From positions 1 to 20,460 of the IMG/VR virus record IMGVR_UViG_3300047557_000371: a stretch of 20,460 nucleotides of DNA; one strand, written 5' to 3'. Every line of letters begins with the position of its first letter. The first letter of the stretch is position 1. This DNA is from a virus. The notes below the pieces were generated by a model, which saw only the letters and a list, made by a program, of their open reading frames with translations, was not told the DNA's origin and ran no database searches. The translations under genes and the position numbers were made by a program. Shown here piece after piece: positions 2,262 to 15,206 of the stretch.

Positions 2262-4100
2262 TTGCCTACGACTGCCGAGGTGGCTGGCCTCTACAACCGT
2301 CTGCGTGTGCAGAACAACGGTCGCGACCAGCGCATGCGTGACATCAAGATGGTGCGTTCGGGTCAGATGGCGAACGTGTTCCCTGACCTGTTCCCTGAGG
2401 ATGGCCCGTTCACTCGCCCGATCGTGGCGAACATGGTGGATGTGGCGGCGCGGGACCTGGCTGAGGTGATCGCGCCGCTGCCGTCGTTCAACTGCTCGTC
2501 CAGCTCGATGGTGTCGGATTCGGCGCGGAAGCGTGCGGAGATGCGTACCCGCATTGCAACGTATTACGTGCAGTATTCGCAGTTGCAGAAGCAGGCGTAT
2601 GCCGCTGCGGACAGGTATGTGACGTACGGCTTCGTTCCGGGGATCGTGGAGATCGACTGGGATGAGCGCATGCCGCGCATCAAGTGGCTGGATTCGATGG
2701 GCTGCTACACGGTGCGCGACAAGCGCGACCGCGTCAAGGCACTGTTCCAGACGATCAACTACCACATCGATGACCTGATCGCGAAGTTCCCGCAACTGGA
2801 AAACGTGATCCTCTCGCAGGCACCCGGTGCGACCACGAAGATCGAGGTGGTCCGCTACCACGACAAGGATGTAGACATCCTGTTCCTGCCCGGTGAGGGC
2901 GGGATTGAGCTGATCCGTACCGCGAACCCGGTGGGCAAGTGCCTCGCCGTGGAGGTGCGCCGCCCTGGTCTGGATGATGACCCGCGTGGGCAGTTCGATG
3001 ATGTGATCGCGGTGCAGGTGGCGAAGGCACGCTTCGCGCTCCTCGCAATGGAAGCAGCACAGAAGAGCGTCCAGGCACCTATCGCTCTCCCCCAGGACGT
3101 GCAGGAACTGTCCCTCGGTGCGGATGCGGTGCTGCGTTCGTCCACACCGGAGAAGATCCGCAGGATCCCGCTCGAGGTTCCCGCTGCCGCGTTCCAAGAG
3201 CAAGGCATCCTTGATAACGAACTGCGTCAGGGCAGCCGCTACCCCGAGGTACGCGGTGGCAACCTTGACGCATCCATCGTCACAGGCCGTGGCGTGCAGG
3301 CGCTGATGACCGGGTTCGACACCCAGGTCCGCACCGCGCACGCCATGTTCGCTGAGGCATACACGGATTTGATCGCCCTCTGCTTCGAAGTGGAGGAGGT
3401 CTGTTGGGCGTCGTTCCGCAAGACTGTTCGCGGTAACGACAACGGCACCCCGTATGAGGTTTCATACTCGCCCGAGAAGGACATCAAGAACGATTACTCG
3501 GTCGATGTTCAGTATGGCCTCATGGCGGGTCTGGACCCTAACCGCGCTCTGGTGTTTGGGTTGCAGGCCCGTGGTGACCGTCTCATCTCGCAGGACTGGC
3601 TACGCCGCTCCCTGCCGTTCTCGCTGAACGCGACGGAGGAAGAGCAGAAGCTGGACATTGAGGATATGCGTCAGGCGCTGCGTCAGGCGGTGTCTGGTTA
3701 CGCGCAGGCGATCCCGGTGCTGGCTCAGAATGGTCAGGATCCTGGGGAGATCCTTACCCGGTTGGCGATAATCATTGAGGGCCGGCAGAAGGGTAAGCCG
3801 ATTGAGGAAGTGATCGCTGAGGCGTTCGCTCCCCCGGAGCCGCCACCCGGCATGGTTGATCCGATGGTTGATGACGCCTCCCCGGTCCCTGGCGATCCCA
3901 TGCAGGATCCCATGTCGGGTGGTGGACCTGAGTCCCTTGAGGGCATTGACGCGATGGGCCGGGTGCGTGGCGTTGCACCGGGTCAAGCGGGTCTTCCTCC
4001 CGGTGGCAGGCCGGATTTGAACTTCCTGCTGGCTGGATTGTCAGCGCGCGGTGAGCCGAATCTCTCCGCTTCTGTATCACGACGAGTACCGATTGCATAA
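2262..4100 (+). CDS. Portal protein
   Basis: This 612-residue protein is the likely portal, the dodecameric ring at one capsid vertex through which DNA enters and leaves. Support comes from its place directly after the terminase, its length, and a sequence like portals of actinophages: an N-terminal helical start (VAGLYNRLRV), the conserved PFTRPIVANMVDVAARDLAE region near residues 48-67, and a helical core with TGRGVQALM near 347. The C-terminal 110 residues are rich in Pro, Gly, Asp and Met, as portal tails often are. The TTG start at 2262 is chosen because AGGAGG at 2252-2257 lies just upstream, overlapping the stop of the terminase gene. The next gene starts 9 bp after its stop, with AAGGAG formed over the stop codon. 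Confidence 0.85.
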   Translation: MPTTAEVAGLYNRLRVQNNGRDQRMRDIKMVRSGQMANVFPDLFPEDGPFTRPIVANMVDVAARDLAEVIAPLPSFNCSSSSMVSDSARKRAEMRTRIATYYVQYSQLQKQAYAAADRYVTYGFVPGIVEIDWDERMPRIKWLDSMGCYTVRDKRDRVKALFQTINYHIDDLIAKFPQLENVILSQAPGATTKIEVVRYHDKDVDILFLPGEGGIELIRTANPVGKCLAVEVRRPGLDDDPRGQFDDVIAVQVAKARFALLAMEAAQKSVQAPIALPQDVQELSLGADAVLRSSTPEKIRRIPLEVPAAAFQEQGILDNELRQGSRYPEVRGGNLDASIVTGRGVQALMTGFDTQVRTAHAMFAEAYTDLIALCFEVEEVCWASFRKTVRGNDNGTPYEVSYSPEKDIKNDYSVDVQYGLMAGLDPNRALVFGLQARGDRLISQDWLRRSLPFSLNATEEEQKLDIEDMRQALRQAVSGYAQAIPVLAQNGQDPGEILTRLAIIIEGRQKGKPIEEVIAEAFAPPEPPPGMVDPMVDDASPVPGDPMQDPMSGGGPESLEGIDAMGRVRGVAPGQAGLPPGGRPDLNFLLAGLSARGEPNLSASVSRRVPIA

Positions 4101-4937: not shown

Positions 4938-5087
4938 CAGTTCTGGGATAAGCCCAACCCGAAGAAGAAGTCCACCCCCTTGACCCCAGCTCAAAAGGCT
5001 GCGGCGAAGGCGAGGGCGAAGAAGGCGGGTCGGCCTTACCCAAATCTGGTGGATAACGCTGCTGTGCGGAGGAAGCGTGGCAAGTAA
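4923..5087 (+). CDS. Conserved small basic phage protein (54 aa)
   Basis: The frame opens with GTG at 4923, overlapping the previous gene by 11 bases, and ends at TAA 5085-5087. The product starts MASKKQFWDKPNPKKK and contains PLTPAQKAAAKARAKKAGRP, then YPNLVDNAA, and ends KRGK. I recognise the TPAQK...AKAAGRPYPNLVDN pattern from small hypothetical proteins of actinophages. It has about 17 basic and two acidic residues and an Ala/Lys-rich central helix. Function unknown; a DNA-binding or head-associated role is inferred from charge and position. Confidence 0.7.
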   Translation: MASKKQFWDKPNPKKKSTPLTPAQKAAAKARAKKAGRPYPNLVDNAAVRRKRGK

Positions 5088-5091
5088 GAAG
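5073..5091 (+). repeat. 19-bp stop/start junction repeat, copy 2
   Basis: Identical to 4919-4937 and with the same double coding: KRGK-stop of the 54-residue protein and MASKK of the 88-residue protein. The two copies are 154 bp apart. Confidence 0.85.
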
Positions 5092-5343
5092 GATTCGCGC
5101 CTGGAGCGCGCTGGCGTTTCTGGCTACAACAAGCCGAAGCGCACACCCAACCACCCCACCAAGAGTCACGTTGTCGTGGCTAAGGAGGGGTCGCAGGTCA
5201 AGACGATTCGTTTCGGTCAGCAGGGTGTGACGGGTGACAAGCAGCCGACGAAACGTCAGGCGTCGTTCAAGGCTAGGCATCGAGCAAACATTGCGAAGGG
5301 CAAGATGAGCGCGGCCTACTGGTCCGACAAAGTGAAGTGGTAG
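5077..5343 (+). CDS. Conserved phage protein of the KSxVVVAKEG / SFKARH family (88 aa)
   Basis: I recognise this as a small protein found in many marine and other phages, characterised by NKPKRTPNHPTKSHVVVAKEG, then KTIRFGQQG, then SFKARHRANIAKGKMSAAYW near the C terminus. Its function is, as far as I know, not established; it usually sits among head genes. The GTG start at 5077 overlaps the previous gene by 11 bases inside a 19-bp repeat. It is basic like its neighbours but has a more ordered-looking sequence. It closes the tiny-gene cassette. Confidence 0.8.
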   Translation: MASKKDSRLERAGVSGYNKPKRTPNHPTKSHVVVAKEGSQVKTIRFGQQGVTGDKQPTKRQASFKARHRANIAKGKMSAAYWSDKVKW

Positions 5344-5371: not shown

Positions 5372-5638
5372 GTGGACGAGGACGACGAGATCATCGAGAT
5401 CATCGAAGAGCAGCCTGTAGTCGTTGAGGCCACACCTTGGTTCAACTCTGACACGGTCGCAACCAGCATGGTGTTTGCCGCGCAGATGGCGCAGGCCGCT
5501 GCTGACCATTTCCAGAATCTCGCGTTTCTGGCGTTGGGGCAGTCAGCGCATGAGTGGGTGCAGAAAGACCGTGAGGAGTTCGCTGAAGAGACAGCGGCTG
5601 ATATTTCTAGGCTTGAGGTGAAGGAGAAGGATGGCTGA
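5372..5638 (+). CDS. Hypothetical protein with acidic N terminus (88 aa)
   Basis: Unrecognised. Residues 2-13 are almost all Asp, Glu and Ile (DEDDEIIEIIEE). The rest looks helical (SMVFAAQMAQAAADHFQNLAFLALG, with moderate hydrophobicity but too many polar residues for a clear membrane segment) and ends in a charged KEKDG tail. GTG at 5372 is preceded by AAGGAG at 5359-5364. The opposite charge to the basic mini-proteins just upstream is notable. The next gene starts 8 bases before its stop. Confidence 0.65.
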   Translation: MDEDDEIIEIIEEQPVVVEATPWFNSDTVATSMVFAAQMAQAAADHFQNLAFLALGQSAHEWVQKDREEFAEETAADISRLEVKEKDG

Positions 5639-6065
5639 GGGTCACGGCGGTATGCGCCGACCGAGCAACCCTGCTCCTGTGTCAGGCCCTGGGGCCTTGT
5701 CACGTCGCACGGATGGTCAGGGCGCTAGGTACATGGCTGGCGGGCAGTACGGGGAGGGTCAGGAGATGATGGATCTTCAGACCTCTGCCCCTATGTCGAA
5801 GGCTCCTGAGCAGCCGCGCATGCGGCAGCCTCGTTCTGGTCGCCAGGTGGTTGAGGAGGGCATGCGCCCCACTCCCCTGTTCGCTCCTACGGAGCGACCG
5901 GATGAGCCGATTACTGCTGGTGCCCCGTTCGGGCCAGGGCCGGGACCTAAGCGCGTCAGCCAACCGGCTCAGAGTGTTGCTGAGTCAATCGCCAGATTTC
6001 TACCCTACGACGATACTGGCACGATTGAACGCCTGTATCGTTTAGCGTCGGCTCGGGGCTGGTAG
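5631..6065 (+). CDS. Phage structural-type protein, Pro/Gly/Arg-rich (144 aa)
   Basis: The N-terminal half is disordered-looking and rich in Pro, Gly, Arg and Gln. Residues 36-55 (AGGQYGEGQEMMDLQTSAPM) match a short conserved segment I have seen in head-region proteins of several phage groups, where it has no assigned function. A second possible folded part is the C-terminal helix (ARFLPYDDTGTIERLYRLASARGW). The ATG at 5631 has GAAGGAGAAGG just upstream and overlaps the previous gene by 8 bases. The giant gene starts 4 bp after its stop. A head or connector-associated role is inferred. Confidence 0.65.
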   Translation: MAEGHGGMRRPSNPAPVSGPGALSRRTDGQGARYMAGGQYGEGQEMMDLQTSAPMSKAPEQPRMRQPRSGRQVVEEGMRPTPLFAPTERPDEPITAGAPFGPGPGPKRVSQPAQSVAESIARFLPYDDTGTIERLYRLASARGW

Positions 6066-6069
6066 CTGC

Positions 6070-9000
6070 GTGCCCCGCCCCCAGCTTGAACCTTCATCAC
6101 GGCCCACCTACTTCGGTGGTACACCGACTAGCACGCAGGGTTACAACCGTCCGCAAATCACCGCCCCACGCGGACCCCTGCCGGGCACTGAAAACTACGC
6201 CCCTGACGCTCAGGAGCAGCGTGAAGTTGAGCGGTACATCGCGGACAATCCGCTATCAACTGCCCAGCAGGTCGATTACGGATACGTTCAGTTTGCCGAA
6301 AACTACGGACCCTACGAAGGACCGGACAATGCGGGAGTACCGCGTATTGCTTCGGCGCGAGCTCGTGCCGCTCAGGCTGTCGTTCGCGCTGGTCTGACGC
6401 CCGAGCGTGCATCAACTCTAGAGAACTACCCGACGGTGGCTCGCGCCTTGGTCAACGCGGGGTTGATGATGTACCCCGAGCGAGTAAGCGAAACATTCCC
6501 TGAGGGCGACCCACGCGCTGCGATGATGCAGGCGCAACGGCTTCAAGCCCGAGGCATGGCAACTGATGCCGTTGACGAGGCTGATGTAGCCCGATTGCTT
6601 AACGTTGTTGAGTTAGACAACGCGGCTAGAAAGTACCTTATGGCCGGGGCGATGGGTGATGAAGTTCGCCAGTCAAACATCCTCTCCTCAATGGGTCCAT
6701 TAGATCAGATGGCGTTACTGGACACCGTGTTCCATAAGGCTCAAGAGCTGGCCGAACGTCGCGAGCTGGTTCCTGAATGGATGCGTAACATGTTCCACTA
6801 CATGACGTATGTAGTGGATGGTTTTTGGTGGGCGAATCGGCAGGCAATCCGCGCATTCAATGCGAACATTGAGGCGATTCAGGATGACCCCAAAAACGTG
6901 TTTTCTGCCGGTCCCCTGTTTGGCGTAGGGCAAGTACTGAATGCTGTTCGATACTGGGATGACGTTGCTGCTGGTCAGTACGACCAGGCAATGTTAGATG
7001 AGGCCCGTGCCCAGCACGGCAGTAAAGCTGTTGATGTCATTGTTGACATCACGAACGAGTATCAGAAGCAAAAATACGTATGGGATCCGACTGGGTCGGG
7101 CGGTTTCTTAAAGCCGTGGGATCAGCAGCCAGAGAACCGGGACGCCACTCCGTTCGAGGTCGTATTCCGTAAGTATCGGGATGACCCCGAGGCGCTTGCC
7201 GTTTTGCGTGGGTTGATTTACACCCAGGAAGAGGATCCGAACCTCGTGGCGGCCATGAAGGCCGTGGATGCGGCAAGTAACTCAAACATGGGCCTGAACT
7301 TGCTTCAAGGGATCCCCACGGAGATTCTTCCTGCTGACAGTCTTCTGCGTGAAAACGTTGGCAACGTTGTCAATATTGCTGCTGGCATCGGCCTTGACCC
7401 GACGCTTGGCGCCGCAAAGATTCTGCGAGTAGCCCGAGTGATGCGCTATTCTATGCTCAAGTTCGCACCTGGGGCTGACATTACTGCCGCACTGTCGATA
7501 CCTAAGGTGCGGCGAGAAATGCAGGCCGTTGTTGACGGTGTTCAACGGTACAAGACTTTGGTTGCCGCAGAGAAAGCTAGAACGGGTCGAACAGGGGCGG
7601 CGGCGAACTACCGCGCCACATTTGAGGAACTGCACGGCGACATTGCGCCGATCCTTGATGACTTGATTGACTACAACAATAAGGCTGGCGTCAAAACGCT
7701 TGACGACGTTCGTGACGTTATCGTCGCTGGTAATGACCTAGATGCTCTTTTGCGTGGCGTTCCGATCAGTCAGGCACGTCACATTCGGACTGTGTACGAG
7801 AGAATGTACGGCGCTGCTGCCCAGGGCGCTCGTCGCGATGTTCTCCTTCCTCGCGCTGGTCGCCTGAACACATTGCAGAAGATGGCTCGCCAGGAACTGG
7901 CCGCTCGCGGACTGGGTGCCCGTATGGGGGCGAAGCGGCTTGAGCGCAGGTTCGGGCCGCAGGGCTCCACAAACCCAGAGGCAATCGCAGCGATCCTAAA
8001 CGAGAACGCTCCCCTGATTGGTGACGCATCCGGTATCGCCCCTCGAGCCTTCAGGTCGCCTATCCTTGAGGCTGTTGGTTTCGTGGGTAAGCGCCGTCCC
8101 GCCTTCAAGAGTCGCGGGACGAGCGCATCAACCCAGGAAACTGATCGTGTCTTAACAACACCGGAATTGAACCCGGGGAAGTTTCGCTACTCGGACGACA
8201 CACTGTATGGACGCGTTACTCGCCTTACCCGCCTCTTTGTGCGGAAGCCGAATGCGGCGATCATTAGTACAGCCGATGGTCGCGACGCTGACAAGATCTT
8301 CACTTTTGCTCGCGCATTTTTTACGAAGTACGAGGCTCGGGCAATTGCCGACGCATTTAAGGTGGCTGACCAGTCCACACGGATCAATATTCGTAATGGC
8401 TTGGTGCGGTCGGCCGCCGAGATTGTCGGCGTTCGCTACAGGTTCGGATCAAACGCTGACCGTGTCATTGACGATCTGATCACGGGCAATCGGGCGTGGG
8501 AGCAGTACTCCCCCACCAAGGTGTATCGACGTAACGCAGACGGCTCGGTCACGACGTATAACCCGGCTGACTTTGGTGCAAACAACGCATCTAGGCAACA
8601 CCCGCTGCATCTGTGGCAGACCTCGGACTACACGAAAATGCCTGACTTCACCGACCTAGAGCTGTTGCAGCAAAGAGCCGGGTTTTGGAACGCTGTGATG
8701 GGTTGGGCTGACACGAACCCGGCGAAAACCATTACTGATGCTTGGAGTCTCGGCACCCTAGTTGGCCCCAGATTCATCCAGCGGTCCGCACTCGAAGACT
8801 ACGTCCTGTGGGCTATGACTTCAGGTTCGTGGACCAACGCTATTGAGGGGCGTCGCCTTAGCACTCGCGTGCGTGCCTACCGTGATGGTTTCGGCAGGGT
8901 GCCCAAGGACATCAAATATGAGGTGGGTGCCGCTACCTACGCTGGTGATGGTTCTCGTCTTGGTTTCTTCAATCGTCGCAAAAAGCCAAAGAACGAGCGG

Positions 9001-11748
9001 TACTCGTCGCAAGAGATGACGAACAACGCTTTTGGTCGATTCATCCTTGACCGTTTGGACGAGGTCGAAGCTGACGAGCTGGTTACTGCCATTGCCAATG
9101 GGGACAAGCCTACACAGGTGCGACTCCTAGCGACTTCTCTGATGCGTATGGAGGGTCTGCCTAAGGGCATGACCGAACTTCAGGCTCGGGGCATTGCAAC
9201 CTCTGCCATTGAAGGCTACGTGCAGCACAAGATGGATGATGTGCTGGAGCAGGCCACGTACATGAACTCTGTCCGCACGACCAGCACTCTGGACCGAACC
9301 GTTGAGGATCTAGGCGTTCTAGATGGCATAACTCTGGCTCGCGCTCAGTACGACGTTGACTTCGTTGACATTGACATGCGACTGGCTAGCCCAGCCGACT
9401 TCATGTCTTGGTATAGGAACATTAGCGGCGCGGTGCAGCTGGATGGTGCCCTCGGCACTGTGGGCGTTGCCAACATTCCGAAGTATCTAGATCCCGCTAC
9501 GCGCAGTCAGGTTATTGACGACCTTGCGTCAATTGTCCGCAACGACAAAACCTACGGGTACAAGGATCGACTTGCGGCCCTGACTGAACCCAATGTTACG
9601 CCCGAGGATTTTGTCGCCCGGTATATGGACGACGTGACAAACCTGTTTACACGGGCTGACGGCTCCCTTAACGATGGCCTTTGGGGTCGGGTCGTGAAGG
9701 TTGAGCAAAATCCAGATGGAGTTGGTCAGGTCACACGAGTGAGCATGGATGACCTTGATACCGGATACATGATGGAACTGGACGTTGCGGACCGACCGGT
9801 GTCGGTGTTGGGGATCAAAAAGACCCCGATTCCGAATCTTACCTCGATGGGCGCGATGGACAAGGTGTGGTCGGTCCTAGGTGCCCAGTACAACCGCATC
9901 TCTCGTGACCCGTTCTGGACCGCGAACTACATGACTGAAATAGGAAAACTCCAGGGCTACCGGGATTCGCTGGTTCCAATTGTAGGTGAGGCTCAGGCTG
10001 ACTTCCGCACCTTTAAGCTCGCTGCCGACCGCGCCTACGATCTCACGCTTGCCTATTCGGACAACCCAGCAAATCGCACGATCTTTGCGTGGAAGATTCG
10101 CAACCTGTCGCGCTATTACCGTGCAACTGAGGACTTTTTCCGACGCATGATGCGTGTCGGCAAGAACTACCCAGAGGGTTTTTGGAAGATCGCTCTCACG
10201 TATGACCTCATGGAGGACTCGGGGTTCGTGTGGGAAGACGACCGGGGCGGGAAGTACTTCATGTACCCGGGCGCGGGGATCGTGAACTCTATCGTGTCTA
10301 ACTCAATTCGTGCGTTGACTGGCAACAACACATTGTCACTTAGCCCATTTGAGGTTGGGGGCAAGGTCAACATGCTGTTGCCGTCGTCTGACCCCAATCA
10401 ACTGATCGCTTCCGCGACAGGGCCGGTAGGTGTCTTGCCGTTCTCTTCCGTATTTGCTGTCGTTCCACAATTTGAAGCTCTTGAAAGAGTGGTGCTTGGT
10501 GAGTACGCACAGGACGCGAAATTGTGGGAAACGATCTTTCCCGCCGGGGTGGTCCGACTGATCAAGGGGCTTGACTGGGACGAGCGTAACGCCGCTTACG
10601 GCAATGCTATGCGTGCCGCTTTCCAGATCTCTGTAGCCGCAGGCATTGAGCCAAAGGACACTTCACCTGAGGCGATGCGGGTCTATCGTGAGCAGGTTGC
10701 GACTATGGCCCAGCACTTTCTGGTTGGCAAGATGATCATGGGCTTCATGGTTCCTGCCTCGCCACAGTTGATCCCGGGAGACGTAACCAGGATCGGTCGC
10801 GAGATGGGCGTGATTTCAATGAACCGGGCATTCCGGTCGATGCTTGATTCTTACGGCGATGACCCGTATGCCTACGAGCAGGCGCTCGTTGACTTCTACA
10901 CCACATTTGGTCCTGAGGCCATGCCCTACACGGTCGGCTCAACCACCACCCCTGGGGCAGACGACGACCCCGGTGGATTGATGCGTACTGCCGCTCTGGA
11001 CTCAATGACCGACAGGGCATACGACTGGGTTCGCAAGAACGACGAGGTCGTTAGCAAGTTCCCGATTGCGGCAACATTTCTGTACCCGCGAGATGGCGAG
11101 TTTGATATCAAGATGTGGGCTTGGTATCAGAAGACCAAGTTTAAGCAACCGACACCTGAGGGCATGTACATCAGGAAGTTGCTTTCCGTTGAGGGGCGCT
11201 TCGAGTACGACCAAACTCAAAAGTATCTGCTAGAACTCCAGGCTAATGGGGAACCTTTTGTGGCTGAGGATGGCTCGGAGCATGAAGTCACAGACGACTT
11301 TATTGAATACAACCTGAAGTCAATTCGCCATGCGAATCCTTGGGCAGACATTGACATGGATTCTTCCTCATACCAGGGCTGGATTGGTTCCGTTGAGCGC
11401 CTACTCAATGGTGACGCATCAACGAAGGGCGAGGTGCGTCGCATGATTGACTACTACTACAGCGATGACTTTAAGTCCGAGATCCCAATTTCGGTGCAGA
11501 AGATCACGGAAGCTGTTGAGACTTTCGATTATTGGAAGGCGCAGCGCGACGGCCTGAATGCCCGCACTACCGAGGGTCGGGAGTTGCGTGATGAAATTGA
11601 CGCCCAATTGCAGGGCTTCCTGACGGAGATCGGGTCTGAAGACCCGAACGCGCAGATCTTCATTGACAGAGTTCTGATGCCCCTCTTGAAGGAGAACCTG
11701 TACGGGGACGGCGAGTTCATTCCGACTGGCGTATTGGTAGGTAGGTAA
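6070..11748 (+). CDS. Giant virion protein, candidate internal/ejection protein (1892 aa)
   Basis: At 1892 residues (about 210 kDa) this is by far the largest gene in the window. I see no clear catalytic motif such as a transglycosylase, peptidase or polymerase site, no signal peptide and no clear membrane helix. It begins with a disordered tag containing PTYFGGTPTS (residues 12-21), shared with the next protein, and is otherwise mostly helical. Stretches that recall large phage structural or polyvalent proteins are NPAKTITDAWSLGTLVGPRF near residue 885, FWKIALTYDLM then GGKYFMYPGAG near 1370-1405, and SKFPIAATFLYPRDGEFD near 1664. By size and position it may be an internal ejection protein, or act at the portal. 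It is not a typical tape measure: it precedes the capsid gene and lacks long coiled repeats. GTG at 6070 is 4 bp after the previous stop, with a weak ribosome binding site. Confidence 0.7.
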   Translation: MPRPQLEPSSRPTYFGGTPTSTQGYNRPQITAPRGPLPGTENYAPDAQEQREVERYIADNPLSTAQQVDYGYVQFAENYGPYEGPDNAGVPRIASARARAAQAVVRAGLTPERASTLENYPTVARALVNAGLMMYPERVSETFPEGDPRAAMMQAQRLQARGMATDAVDEADVARLLNVVELDNAARKYLMAGAMGDEVRQSNILSSMGPLDQMALLDTVFHKAQELAERRELVPEWMRNMFHYMTYVVDGFWWANRQAIRAFNANIEAIQDDPKNVFSAGPLFGVGQVLNAVRYWDDVAAGQYDQAMLDEARAQHGSKAVDVIVDITNEYQKQKYVWDPTGSGGFLKPWDQQPENRDATPFEVVFRKYRDDPEALAVLRGLIYTQEEDPNLVAAMKAVDAASNSNMGLNLLQGIPTEILPADSLLRENVGNVVNIAAGIGLDPTLGAAKILRVARVMRYSMLKFAPGADITAALSIPKVRREMQAVVDGVQRYKTLVAAEKARTGRTGAAANYRATFEELHGDIAPILDDLIDYNNKAGVKTLDDVRDVIVAGNDLDALLRGVPISQARHIRTVYERMYGAAAQGARRDVLLPRAGRLNTLQKMARQELAARGLGARMGAKRLERRFGPQGSTNPEAIAAILNENAPLIGDASGIAPRAFRSPILEAVGFVGKRRPAFKSRGTSASTQETDRVLTTPELNPGKFRYSDDTLYGRVTRLTRLFVRKPNAAIISTADGRDADKIFTFARAFFTKYEARAIADAFKVADQSTRINIRNGLVRSAAEIVGVRYRFGSNADRVIDDLITGNRAWEQYSPTKVYRRNADGSVTTYNPADFGANNASRQHPLHLWQTSDYTKMPDFTDLELLQQRAGFWNAVMGWADTNPAKTITDAWSLGTLVGPRFIQRSALEDYVLWAMTSGSWTNAIEGRRLSTRVRAYRDGFGRVPKDIKYEVGAATYAGDGSRLGFFNRRKKPKNERYSSQEMTNNAFGRFILDRLDEVEADELVTAIANGDKPTQVRLLATSLMRMEGLPKGMTELQARGIATSAIEGYVQHKMDDVLEQATYMNSVRTTSTLDRTVEDLGVLDGITLARAQYDVDFVDIDMRLASPADFMSWYRNISGAVQLDGALGTVGVANIPKYLDPATRSQVIDDLASIVRNDKTYGYKDRLAALTEPNVTPEDFVARYMDDVTNLFTRADGSLNDGLWGRVVKVEQNPDGVGQVTRVSMDDLDTGYMMELDVADRPVSVLGIKKTPIPNLTSMGAMDKVWSVLGAQYNRISRDPFWTANYMTEIGKLQGYRDSLVPIVGEAQADFRTFKLAADRAYDLTLAYSDNPANRTIFAWKIRNLSRYYRATEDFFRRMMRVGKNYPEGFWKIALTYDLMEDSGFVWEDDRGGKYFMYPGAGIVNSIVSNSIRALTGNNTLSLSPFEVGGKVNMLLPSSDPNQLIASATGPVGVLPFSSVFAVVPQFEALERVVLGEYAQDAKLWETIFPAGVVRLIKGLDWDERNAAYGNAMRAAFQISVAAGIEPKDTSPEAMRVYREQVATMAQHFLVGKMIMGFMVPASPQLIPGDVTRIGREMGVISMNRAFRSMLDSYGDDPYAYEQALVDFYTTFGPEAMPYTVGSTTTPGADDDPGGLMRTAALDSMTDRAYDWVRKNDEVVSKFPIAATFLYPRDGEFDIKMWAWYQKTKFKQPTPEGMYIRKLLSVEGRFEYDQTQKYLLELQANGEPFVAEDGSEHEVTDDFIEYNLKSIRHANPWADIDMDSSSYQGWIGSVERLLNGDASTKGEVRRMIDYYYSDDFKSEIPISVQKITEAVETFDYWKAQRDGLNARTTEGRELRDEIDAQLQGFLTEIGSEDPNAQIFIDRVLMPLLKENLYGDGEFIPTGVLVGR

Positions 11749-12668
11749 TGTCGCAGCCCACATACTTCGGTGGAACGCCGACCAGTTCAAGTGGATATTC
11801 AAGTACGAGTAAGCCTAAGCCGCCGCCTAGGGGCACACAGTCGGGGCCTGGCGTCAATGTGCTTGTACCCACGACCACGACTACGGCCCCGGCACGCGAC
11901 GACTCATCGTCAACATCAACGTCCACTAGTGGGTCGTCCCCTCGCCCTCCGGCGTACATGCGCTATCAGGTGACCTATCGCCCCCCCGTGTGGGGGACGG
12001 CTGATAGGCAAGAGCAGCAGATTTCCACGCTTCCGCTGGTGTATCGAGCGCAAACCTCTGGTGATCTACGCGAGGCGTACTGGAATGACCCCGACTCCCG
12101 TGCGATCATTCAAGCCGCTGCTCGGGTCTATTACCGGGATTACCCGAACTACAGCGATCAATGGGCTGAGGGGTTTTGGCAAGAGGACATCCTCAACGCC
12201 TCGCTAAACCCCGGCTCACCGCCGCCTTGGCAGGCGCTGCAAATGATCTTCTCGGGTCAGACTACTGCGCCAAGTGATCCCGGTAGCTCCAGCGGCTACT
12301 CAGGCTATTCCTCTTATGGAGGCAGTTACGGTGGTGGGTACGGCGGTGGCAGCGGTGGGGGCGGTTCGGTTGCCTTGACTGACCCAACGTCTGCGCGTGG
12401 CCTGCTGCTGCAAACGATGCAGGGTGTCCTGGGTCGTAACCCCACCGACCGGGAGTACAGGGATTTCCTGAAGACTTTGAACAAGTCCGAGATGGCTAAT
12501 CCCCGCACCGTGGAGATGGATGGGGATGTGGCTGTTCAGTCTGGTGGGATCGACGCAAGCGTCCTGGCTTTGGATTTCGCTAAGGCGGCTGATGACTACA
12601 AGGCCACTCAGGCTAACAAGTTTTATAACGCTTTCATGGGTGCGCTTGGGGGTGGTGTGAGTGGCTGA
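11748..12668 (+). CDS. Virion-associated protein sharing the PTYFGGTPTS N-terminal tag (306 aa)
   Basis: Its ATG shares one base with the giant gene's stop (TAATG). Residues 4-17 (PTYFGGTPTSSSGY) match residues 12-25 of the giant protein almost exactly, followed in both by a Pro-rich stretch with PRG. Then come a Thr/Ser/Pro-rich linker (about 20-70), a folded-looking part (about 72-170), a Gly/Ser/Tyr-rich spacer (177-207) and a C-terminal helical part with VLGRNPTDREYRDFL (227-241), a pattern I have seen in phage structural proteins. It ends in a helix with DYKATQANKFYNAFMGAL. Likely a partner of the giant protein in the virion or procapsid; exact role unknown. The next GTG overlaps it by 8 bases. 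Confidence 0.65.
   Translation: MSQPTYFGGTPTSSSGYSSTSKPKPPPRGTQSGPGVNVLVPTTTTTAPARDDSSSTSTSTSGSSPRPPAYMRYQVTYRPPVWGTADRQEQQISTLPLVYRAQTSGDLREAYWNDPDSRAIIQAAARVYYRDYPNYSDQWAEGFWQEDILNASLNPGSPPPWQALQMIFSGQTTAPSDPGSSSGYSGYSSYGGSYGGGYGGGSGGGGSVALTDPTSARGLLLQTMQGVLGRNPTDREYRDFLKTLNKSEMANPRTVEMDGDVAVQSGGIDASVLALDFAKAADDYKATQANKFYNAFMGALGGGVSG
11963..12008 (+). repeat. Hairpin with alternative outer arms inside the 306-residue gene
   Basis: CTATCAG (11963-11969) pairs with CTGATAG (12001-12007); alternatively CCTATC (11974-11979) pairs with GATAGG (12003-12008). A perfect CCCCC-GTGT-GGGGG hairpin (11983-11996) lies inside. It is coding sequence, so it could also be due to chance plus codon choice. 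Confidence 0.35.
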
Positions 12669-13821
12669 CCAGACCGCGGGTGATCCTAAGGATCGTGTGT
12701 CAGGTGGGCCTAATCCGGCCCAGGGTGGTGGGAAGAAACCATTTGCCGTTGAGCAGGCTCGCCGCGAGTTGGCTGACGCTGAGCGTGTCCTGAAGGATCT
12801 TGAGAAGCGCAAGATCAAGGGACCGCAGCTTGATCAGGCGAAGGAGGCGGTCCGAGAGGCCCGTAAGACTCTCCGTGACATGACGAAGGGTGACCGCGAA
12901 GATCGCATTGAGGCTCGCCGTGACTTCATGGACGAGTACTACAACGATCTTGGCGGTCCGTGGATTGCTGAACTTATCAAGCGTGACCCTGAACTGAATC
13001 GTCTCTTTCAGAAGCACATCCGTAACGATGACGTTGACGGGTTCATGGATGAGGTCTACCAGAGTGACTGGTGGAACGATCCTGAGAAGTCTACGTCGTG
13101 GAAGAACGCATTTAGGCTTGAGTTCGCTAAGGACAAGACAGCCTGGAACACGGCTTTATCTGACGCTGAGGATGCCATTGAGGCCCTTGCTGATGACTTG
13201 TACAACATTGAGATTCCTCCCGAGATTCTGGCTCAGATTGCTCGCCGTTACGTCTATGAGGGCTGGGCTCAGAAGGATGAGGGCCTGCGGGTTTGGCTGT
13301 CGAAGCAGTTCTCTAACCAGCGTAAGGCGGACCCGGAACTGACCCCTGGTGGTCAGCTACTGGACACCGAGCGTGCCTTGACTGAGGCTGTTCGTGCTTA
13401 CGGTGTTGACCGTGACGAGAAGTGGATCCGTCAGACTTCTCGCAAGATCTTGAACCCTGATGCGAACTTCGATGAGGATGACGCCTGGAATGAGATCATT
13501 GCTGAGGCTGAGTCCTTGTACCCAGTTTTTGCTGGGAAGTTGTCCAAGGATCGTTCTGTGCGTGACCTTGGTGCTGGCTACATCAATCAGTTGTATCGCC
13601 GTCTTGAGCTGGCTGGTCCCGATGAGGTTGACCTGACTGATCCTTTGCTGCGTAGGGCGTTCACTAGCCCTAACGAGAAGGGTGAGCCTGTGTTGATGCC
13701 GTTGTGGCAGTTTGAGCAGGAGATCAAGAAGGATGATCGCTGGCAGTTGACGAATAATGCGAGGGATACCTACATGGCTGCTGGCACTTCGTTGCTTCGT
13801 GCGTTCGGGTTCACGGGATAG
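12661..13821 (+). CDS. Putative virion structural protein with N-terminal coiled coil (386 aa)
   Basis: The protein starts with a disordered segment (to about residue 27), then a highly charged helix (about 29-80: VEQARRELADAERVLKDLEK and following) that reads as a coiled coil, and then an acidic, helical, Trp-rich body. The C terminus (PLWQFEQEIKKDDRWQLTNN, then ARDTYMAAGTSLLRAFGF) resembles ends of large structural proteins in actinophages; I cannot name a family. GTG at 12661 overlaps the preceding stop by 8 bases. Location between the giant protein and the scaffold suggests a head-internal or portal-associated protein. Confidence 0.65.
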   Translation: MADQTAGDPKDRVSGGPNPAQGGGKKPFAVEQARRELADAERVLKDLEKRKIKGPQLDQAKEAVREARKTLRDMTKGDREDRIEARRDFMDEYYNDLGGPWIAELIKRDPELNRLFQKHIRNDDVDGFMDEVYQSDWWNDPEKSTSWKNAFRLEFAKDKTAWNTALSDAEDAIEALADDLYNIEIPPEILAQIARRYVYEGWAQKDEGLRVWLSKQFSNQRKADPELTPGGQLLDTERALTEAVRAYGVDRDEKWIRQTSRKILNPDANFDEDDAWNEIIAEAESLYPVFAGKLSKDRSVRDLGAGYINQLYRRLELAGPDEVDLTDPLLRRAFTSPNEKGEPVLMPLWQFEQEIKKDDRWQLTNNARDTYMAAGTSLLRAFGFTG

Positions 13822-13823
13822 TC

Positions 13824-15206
13824 ATGGCGAAGCGTAATAGTCAGCGAGACAACGTCATTCGGCAGAATCGCAATGACCGCATTCGGGAAACTCGTGAGCG
13901 AGCGGCTGCCGAGCAGCGTCAGCGGGAGCAGCGTGCCGAGGCTGAACGTCGTGCCCGTGAGGAGAGGATGCGTCAGGCTGGTGTGACGCCCCCTAGTGAG
14001 CGGAAACCGAAGACGCCCCCTAAGCCGAAGGCTCCTCCGAAGCCTGGTTATGACTGGGTGTGGAACGGGTCTGCTTGGGTTGAGACGAAGTTGGGTAAGG
14101 ACAACCCCCCAACTCAGGAACTCCCTGATGGTTATGAGTGGACGTGGAACGAGACGACTCAGACGTGGGGTTTCACGCAGACTTCTACTGGCTCCGGTGA
14201 CGGTACTGGCGATGGAGACGGTGACGGCACCGGAGACGGAGATGGCACCGGGTCGGGATCTGGCGATGGCATCAACACGGGTCAGCGCCAGGCCGCGAAG
14301 GTGCTCGTCAAGGCAATGATGGAGCAGCTTGGCTTCTCTGAGTCTATGGGCTTCACCGCTGCCGAGATCAACACCATGCTGACGAGACTGGACGAGTGGA
14401 TTGAGTTGGGCATTGCCGACAATGATCCGTCCGGTCAGAATCTCCTACTGCTGTTCCGTTCCGATGAGAAAACCCGCAGCATCTACGAGAAGCGTTTCCC
14501 TGGCATGAAAGCAATGGCAGCCCGAGGGCAGTCCATGTCGGAAAGCGAATACATCAACATGGAGCGGGAGTACCGGAACACGCTTGCCAGTTTCGACCTG
14601 CCACCTGAGTATTACGACTCCTTCGATGACTACGGCAGGTTCTTCGCCGGAGGCGTCTCGGTCGCTGAGGTGGGTCAGAGGGCTATGGCTGCGAAAGCAG
14701 CGATCAATCCGACCGTGCTGGCTGAACTGCAGGAGTACTACGGAATCGGTGAAGGCACGGCTACGGCTTACCTTCTAGGTTTGACGGACGAGAAGGGCGT
14801 CATGCTGGCCTCTGATGCTGCTGCCCGTAACCAGCGGCAGATCTCTGACATCAACCGCAACATTCAGATCGGTGGAATGGCCGAGGCTTCAGGGTTCCGC
14901 ATGGGCCTGAATCAGGCATCCGCTCTGGCTGGGACTGTGCTGGGTCAGGGCATGGATCCGTTCGATCCACGCACTCAGTCCATGTTGAAGGGCACGTTTG
15001 ATAATGCGCGCAGGGTTGCCGACAGGGAAACGGTTCTCGCTGGAATTGACCGTGAGGCGTATAGCGAGCAGGACACTCTTGCGGCTGCTTTTGGTGATCA
15101 GCAGAAGGCGCTCGCCTCGGAGAGGCGTGCGAAGAGGGAGCGTGACAGGTTCGCTGGGTCGGCTGGCGCTTCTTCGGCATCTATCGGCGTGCAAAGGAAC
15201 ATTTAG
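13824..15206 (+). CDS. Virion protein with charged N-terminal helix, WxW repeats and a Gly-Asp linker (460 aa)
   Basis: Four parts are visible. Residues 1-52 form a long Arg/Glu/Gln helix (RERAAAEQRQREQRAEAERR) likely to be a coiled coil. A Lys/Pro linker leads to two related Trp motifs, PGYDWVWNGSAWVE (74-87) and DGYEWTWNETTQTW (102-115). Residues 123-149 are Gly, Asp, Thr and Ser only, mostly GDG or GTG units. From about 152 the protein is folded; 207-283 (LLLFRSDEKTRSIYEKRFPG, then SESEYINMEREYRNTL and VSVAEV) matches a segment I have seen in minor structural proteins of several phages. ATG at 13824 lies two bases after the previous stop. It is the last gene before the tRNA-like gap. Function unknown. 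Confidence 0.7.
   Translation: MAKRNSQRDNVIRQNRNDRIRETRERAAAEQRQREQRAEAERRAREERMRQAGVTPPSERKPKTPPKPKAPPKPGYDWVWNGSAWVETKLGKDNPPTQELPDGYEWTWNETTQTWGFTQTSTGSGDGTGDGDGDGTGDGDGTGSGSGDGINTGQRQAAKVLVKAMMEQLGFSESMGFTAAEINTMLTRLDEWIELGIADNDPSGQNLLLLFRSDEKTRSIYEKRFPGMKAMAARGQSMSESEYINMEREYRNTLASFDLPPEYYDSFDDYGRFFAGGVSVAEVGQRAMAAKAAINPTVLAELQEYYGIGEGTATAYLLGLTDEKGVMLASDAAARNQRQISDINRNIQIGGMAEASGFRMGLNQASALAGTVLGQGMDPFDPRTQSMLKGTFDNARRVADRETVLAGIDREAYSEQDTLAAAFGDQQKALASERRAKRERDRFAGSAGASSASIGVQRNI

Follow-up and report, generated by a model that had tools for sequence, protein, structure and literature searches.

The window, by which we mean the whole 20,460-base stretch of DNA analysed here, is an IMG/VR virus fragment of a phage that is also represented by a 28,663-base contig. 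It derives from an uncultured phage, whose hosts are probably actinobacteria. The features that concern us are as follows:

Start 358, plus strand: large terminase (from the gene-order listing)
2262 to 4100, plus strand: portal protein, 42% identical to the portal of WRightOn (Beephvirinae)
Between the portal and p144, plus strand: small ORFs (gene-order listing)
5631 to 6065, plus strand: p144, a small protein directly upstream of the giant gene and a conserved marker of this locus
6070 to 11748, plus strand: giant protein of 1892 residues with a GTG start, a putative ejection protein in the position of WRightOn gp10
6103 to 6144, plus strand: tag copy 1, PTYFGGTPTSTQGY, giant residues 12-25; also at the same place in the giants of L009, L013, L014, L015 and L057/L058/L060/L061
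11748 to 12668, plus strand: p306, a mosaic putative ejection protein of 306 residues (alignment, low-confidence model, phrog_13037 at residues 214-302, C-terminal match to WRightOn gp11)
11757 to 11798, plus strand: tag copy 2, PTYFGGTPTSSSGY, p306 residues 4-17, sitting where relatives have YVPGYGYV
11799 to 12029, plus strand: p306 post-tag linker, residues 18-94, predicted to be disordered (pLDDT below 50 over residues 1-94)
12267 to 12371, plus strand: p306 Gly/Tyr-rich linker, residues 174-208 (alignment, model)
12372 to 12665, plus strand: p306 conserved C-terminal domain, residues 209-306 (phrog_13037, alignment, WRightOn gp11 match)
12661 to 13821, plus strand: p386, whose homology is to the C-terminal domain found in WRightOn gp12 and gp13, which are annotated as peptidase and glycosylase, respectively
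13824 to 15206, plus strand: p460, of the same block and related to WRightOn gp14
Start 15463, plus strand: scaffold-like p166, named by position only
Start 16006, plus strand: major capsid protein (Phage_capsid_3)
Start 18597, plus strand: SU10-type adaptor (gene-order listing)

Portal identity to the Streptomyces phages WRightOn, Manuel and Immanuel3 is 42%, and the capsid shares 54% identity with that of WRightOn. This member of the Beephvirinae has an identical gene order, with a 1644-residue gp10 in the place of the giant followed by gp11, gp12, gp13 and gp14, and partial-length matches connect p306 with gp11, p386 with gp12/gp13 and p460 with gp14. With homologous portal and major capsid proteins and the same order of structural genes, the window phage is related to the Beephvirinae. 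Because of the gene order and the homology to the WRightOn block, we take the giant, p306, p386 and p460 to be a set of putative ejection proteins; they include large variable proteins in the portal-to-capsid interval, and wall-hydrolase domains occur in family members, as judged through homology to gp10-gp14 and their annotation. The window giant itself matched no Pfam, PHROG or PDB entry.

Several smaller features of this region were recorded. The protein p386 resembles WRightOn gp12 and gp13 minus the enzyme domain, the C-terminal domain being common to all three (L078, 12562-15170). A further short motif, (P)SGGPNP, occurs close to the N-terminus in p386 (window 12661-12740, L019, L045) and in p460 homologues (L005, L009, L036; the L004 p460 N-terminus was also in the compared set), and the N-terminal ends of p386 and p460 are unrelated apart from it. 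The N-terminal half of p460 contains a degenerate PxGYxWxWNxxxxxW repeat in two copies (PKPGYDWVWNGSAWV and PDGYEWTWNETTQTWGF), with similar stretches in the L005 and L036 homologues. An 88-residue protein encoded at window 5077-5343 (phrog_7595, function unknown) has counterparts of approximately 86-95% identity in almost every podophage relative; its GYNKPKRTP resembles the TGYNKPKARR that ends one of the tag copies in L011.

The giant and p306 share the sequence PTYFGGTPTSxxGY near their N-termini. The initial annotation had described this correctly: the coordinates are exact, 12 of the 14 residues are identical, the encoding DNA (6103-6144 versus 11757-11798) agrees at 30 of 42 bases, and each tag is followed by a Pro-rich linker, more precisely a Pro/Ser-rich stretch, with PRG. 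The remainder of the two proteins is unrelated, as the best local alignment covers the tag alone (score 88, against a maximum of 63 in 200 shuffles and 76 in 600; Gumbel p ~4e-5). Moreover, when p306 was used as a protein query against the record, the tag region of the giant was the sole match, and no further copy of the tag was found in the window in any frame. At seven of the 12 shared residues the two copies use different synonymous codons, so they are old or of independent origin, and it is the peptide that has been conserved. A recent DNA duplication or a DNA-level element was therefore rejected, all the more so because the p306 tag is not closest to that of its own giant (32 of 42 bases are shared with the tags of L013 and L008).

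Further tag loci were obtained by exact scans of viral contigs with back-translated, degenerate-codon patterns. With Y[FY]GGTPx(S/T)xxGY, 14 of 15 loci fell in giant genes, p306 or tape-measure-type ORFs. The same pattern applied to 84,980 prokaryote genomes (257 billion bases) gave three unrelated matches, which is the level expected by chance; thus the tag is a phage motif and not a copy of one in a host protein, and mimicry of a host protein was discarded as an explanation. In a profile HMM search over ORFs the tags scored 23-38 bits, a degenerate second copy in L008 scored 14.4 bits, the next non-tag sequences reached about 10 bits or less and reversed proteins at most 7.3. Nine core positions hold a single residue each, an invariance partly imposed by the search pattern, which under-samples weaker variants; the search pattern does not impose the codon variety, with two to six codons used at each of these positions and both serine codon families represented. 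Among loci, the tag DNA varies at the majority of third positions.

Some matches were set aside. Those to HYDGGTPITRTGY (L079, L084, L087, L088) lie in apparent amidase or endolysin sequences and were considered coincidental, and L059, L063, L064, L131, L132 and L134 were classed as chance matches. Two weak candidates scoring 9-15 bits, in the L128 tape measure and at the C-terminus of a 436-residue tail-region protein of L130 (two copies), were not relied upon. A tblastn search of cultured phages and plasmids found no convincing tag, filtered tblastn being poorly suited to short, low-complexity queries.

Among the relatives, the tag opens the giants of L009, L013, L014, L015 and L012 in the form [VL]ARPQLPxSSRPTYFGGTPTS, and it also opens a second set of giants, those of L057, L058, L060 and L061 (MSVQPEYFGGTPTSQTGYRKP). 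The giants fall into clade A (window, L009, L013, L042, L023, ct2KA10) and clade B (L005, L016, L017, L019, L036, L057, WRightOn gp10), between which the tag is the only stretch that BLASTP can align (L009 versus L057). In the tagged giants of clade A, identity is 80% over the first 25 residues, compared with a mean of 21% over the 1190 aligned N-terminal residues, and the best-conserved windows of that alignment are those of the tag region. The tag is carried by about six of some 20 distinct giant N-termini, and it must consequently be dispensable or replaceable. AlphaFold modelling of giant residues 1-1190 gave a mean pLDDT of 39.5, with residues 1-44 in coil and the tag within low-confidence coil. 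The mean for p306 was 50, its tag likewise in low-confidence coil, and models this weak were not useful for a fold search that might add function.

At the giant locus the two clades have been swapped (window 6070-11748; L005, L016, L019, L036, L057), while its neighbours are well conserved and portals are 79-97% identical among close relatives. Untagged clade A giants begin with NFSADRLEQK (L042) or RPSADRAQQ (L048); SADRxE also precedes the tag in the tape measures of L008, L112 and L081, a likeness of four residues that may be due to chance. The FLFGTPDSQTG that starts the L005 and L019 giants is tag-like and was excluded from the counts; the related L016 giant lacks it.

The second tagged protein of the window has a different history. 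The layout of p306 is the tag, a Pro/Ser linker, a variable helical middle domain, the Gly/Tyr-rich linker and the conserved C-terminal domain, and its homologues align over the last 100 or so residues and are mosaic elsewhere. The initial annotation envisaged the giant and p306 as a pair held to one partner by a common tag, and this pairing fails by the refuting observation that it had itself named, absence of the motif from the homologues of one of the two proteins in relatives: among eleven aligned p306 homologues the YFGGTPTS tag is found in that of the window alone. Six distinct homologues instead carry YVPGYGYV after a short M-S/A-x leader, and four (L017, L023, L042 and WRightOn gp11) carry neither. 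In L009 and L014/L071 the p306 homologue has YVPGYGYV while the giant has YFGGTPTS. It appears from these alignments that the window p306 exchanged one conserved N-terminal tag for another, and a swap at this position suggests that both tags do the same kind of job. Elsewhere in viral contigs YVPGYGYV is rare; a match in L077 lies inside a 332-residue protein beside a portal-like gene and a 1094-residue protein of another phage, and may be fortuitous. PDB profile matches to p306 look like glycine-linker artefacts and were rejected.

The tag was also found inside very long proteins of siphophage-type contigs, namely L008 (3692 residues), L011 (full ORF 3858 residues, the same as L112), L055/L056 and L081. 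Tape-measure models match L008, L055, L081 and L112. There are two copies in L008, three in L112 and one in each of the others, with tandem copies in L008 and L011 spaced 18 residues apart, and all occupy linkers near a GPGGPxSDxIPAxLSNGEYV element. Two of the tagged tape measures also contain wall-hydrolase domains: Amidase_2 in L055 (tag at 803, domain at 929-1071) and NlpC/P60 in L008. In L112 the tags are at 2576, 2594 and 2955, and DUF2786 is at 2876-2910. The motif thus recurs in other phages, at giant N-termini among other places. The window phage alone has the same N-terminal peptide on more than one of its proteins, the other phages having the tag on one protein each. Together, a short conserved motif, unrelated carrier proteins and regions that are disordered, as judged from low-confidence models only, are the hallmarks of a short linear motif. 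The combined comparisons support the view that the tag is a genuine short peptide, selected at the peptide level and present on two otherwise unrelated putative ejection-block proteins.

We compared three tagged podophage contigs with four tagged siphophage contigs by all-against-all BLAST. Apart from the tag, no virion protein, including portal, scaffold and capsid, was common to the two groups in this comparison, and neither was any phage protease. The genes they appear to have in common, named here from our reading of the sequences and not from database assignments, code for a WhiB-like protein, a phosphoesterase, a small holin-like protein and a primase-like fragment; fragments also matched around a tRNA region, which in the 84-kb siphophage contig has tRNA-Trp. 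A shared phage-encoded partner was therefore rejected, only non-virion genes and the tag having been recovered. WhiB is a hallmark of the actinobacteria, and actinobacterial hosts are indicated by the WhiB-like genes and the Streptomyces relatives. The G+C content is 50-58% in the tagged podophages and 38-42% in the siphophages, which makes a single host species unlikely.

We give about an even chance to the reading that the tag is a portable docking motif on disordered parts of ejected entry proteins; its partner would less likely be portal or scaffold than a host envelope protein or other tagged chains. We favour a docking motif because the residue order and spacing of the peptide have been preserved in flexible segments of proteins with no other relationship. 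The peptide P-T-Y-[FY]-G-G-T-P-T-S-x-x-G-Y would act from disordered tails or linkers. The large proteins that bear it would be ejected at infection, as gene order, tape-measure identity and hydrolase domains suggest, and would share one fate, passing into the cell envelope before the DNA or together with it. There the tag could bind a partner met by both phage types, either a protein of the host envelope or membrane or else further chains that carry the tag, and in the window p306 it would stand in place of an equivalent YVPGYGYV. A broader version, which we regard as tentative, is that actinobacterial podophages and siphophages use the same conserved host envelope factor through a common entry code, with YVPGYGYV as a second, exchangeable code word. 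The G+C gap allows for different hosts, and the case for a single host partner is weakened by it.

The initial annotation proposed instead an assembly role, with both proteins docked on a partner such as portal or scaffold or targeted into the procapsid. We extended this reading to docking of the giant and p306 on one another and to a comparison with the T4 capsid targeting sequence, which does this for internal proteins. In its favour, every tagged giant and the window p306 have the tag at the N-terminus, and the two window genes belong to the putative ejection block, which is flanked by the portal and scaffold-like p166. However, the p306 homologues of relatives lack the tag, the annotated structural genes include no recognisable prohead protease, and the tag is present inside siphophage tape measures, which are not head proteins and are assembled in tails. 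Loading into procapsids is thus not the purpose that the distribution points to, and a portal or scaffold partner does not explain that distribution as a whole because, within the reach of BLAST, the two groups have no portal, scaffold or capsid protein in common. What survives of the proposal is a real, selected and portable peptide on two unrelated proteins, without their joint docking on portal or scaffold. An assembly role may be specific to the window phage alone; as a general explanation we think it unlikely.

Alternatively, the tag could be a processing site at which a phage or host protease trims giants and tape measures or frees their domains on entry. The positions of the tape-measure copies between domains fit such a role, the L055 tag preceding Amidase_2 and the L112 tags flanking DUF2786, and a cut in the giants would release a short propeptide. 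Yet tandem copies 18 residues apart are unnecessary for a cut, and the tagged podophages and siphophages have no phage protease in common, so that we consider processing distinctly improbable. Self-association seems to us doubtful to the same degree. Segments rich in aromatic residues, Gly and Thr/Ser might stick together in the manner of low-complexity kinked segments (LARKS), bundling the ejection proteins within the head or the tape-measure chains within the tail, and the composition (Y/F-G-G-T-P-T-S-G-Y), the tandem copies and the long Gly/Tyr-rich stretch in p306 are all compatible with this; most phages, however, have one copy on one protein, and stickiness would not call for residue order and spacing to be preserved as exactly as they are from one unrelated protein to the next. 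Finally, the tag could be a passive cassette in linkers that recombination moves from phage to phage and that has no function of its own; this would account for the constant location in linkers or tails and for the mosaic p306 and tape-measure genes, but residues fixed despite synonymous divergence, in what is the best-conserved stretch of the giant, argue for selection on the peptide and make it very improbable.

To our knowledge, the entry proteins of short- and long-tailed phages have no common sequence, and host partners are known for few phages only. A fixed 14-residue peptide present on both kinds of phage is a ready bait for finding such a partner directly. In addition, the tag provides a sequence handle for entry proteins in uncultured phages whose giants match no Pfam, PHROGs or PDB entry.

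Compared with known systems, the window phage resembles the Beephvirinae (WRightOn, Manuel, Immanuel3, FlowerPower), with portals 41-42% and capsids 54% identical and a giant gene between portal and capsid; unlike the window, WRightOn has a clade B giant, and neither tag opens gp10 or gp11. The nearest precedent for a shared terminal tag is the T4 capsid targeting sequence, a common short N-terminal peptide on different internal, injected virion proteins. The present tag differs in that it is also internal in siphophage-type tape measures, and hence not restricted to the head, and in that it is not conserved on the p306 of relatives. Tag removal by a prohead protease is a trait of the T4 system, and the scan of the main window proteins revealed no such enzyme.

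The ejection proteins of podophages form mosaics, with a hydrolase domain that can move between members (PMC8954989). The block described here is like T7 gp14-16 and the P22 counterparts in being a variable, mosaic set of internal proteins, one of them very large, with mobile wall-hydrolase domains, and unlike them in that no sequence similarity was detected; in the passages of PMC8954989 that were consulted, no shared terminal tag was found on such proteins. According to PMC1796659, mycobacteriophage tape measures carry mobile motifs 1-3 that resemble host proteins (Pedulla 2003), motif 3 being peptidoglycan-hydrolysing. Homology to host cell-wall proteins is not a trait of the tag, for which the prokaryote scan stayed at chance. 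It differs from motifs 1-3 further in being 14 residues long, in lying within segments predicted to be disordered and in occurring also on podophage proteins. Like them, the tag is a module in the tape measures of otherwise different, probably actinobacterial phages, with a likely link to passage through the wall.
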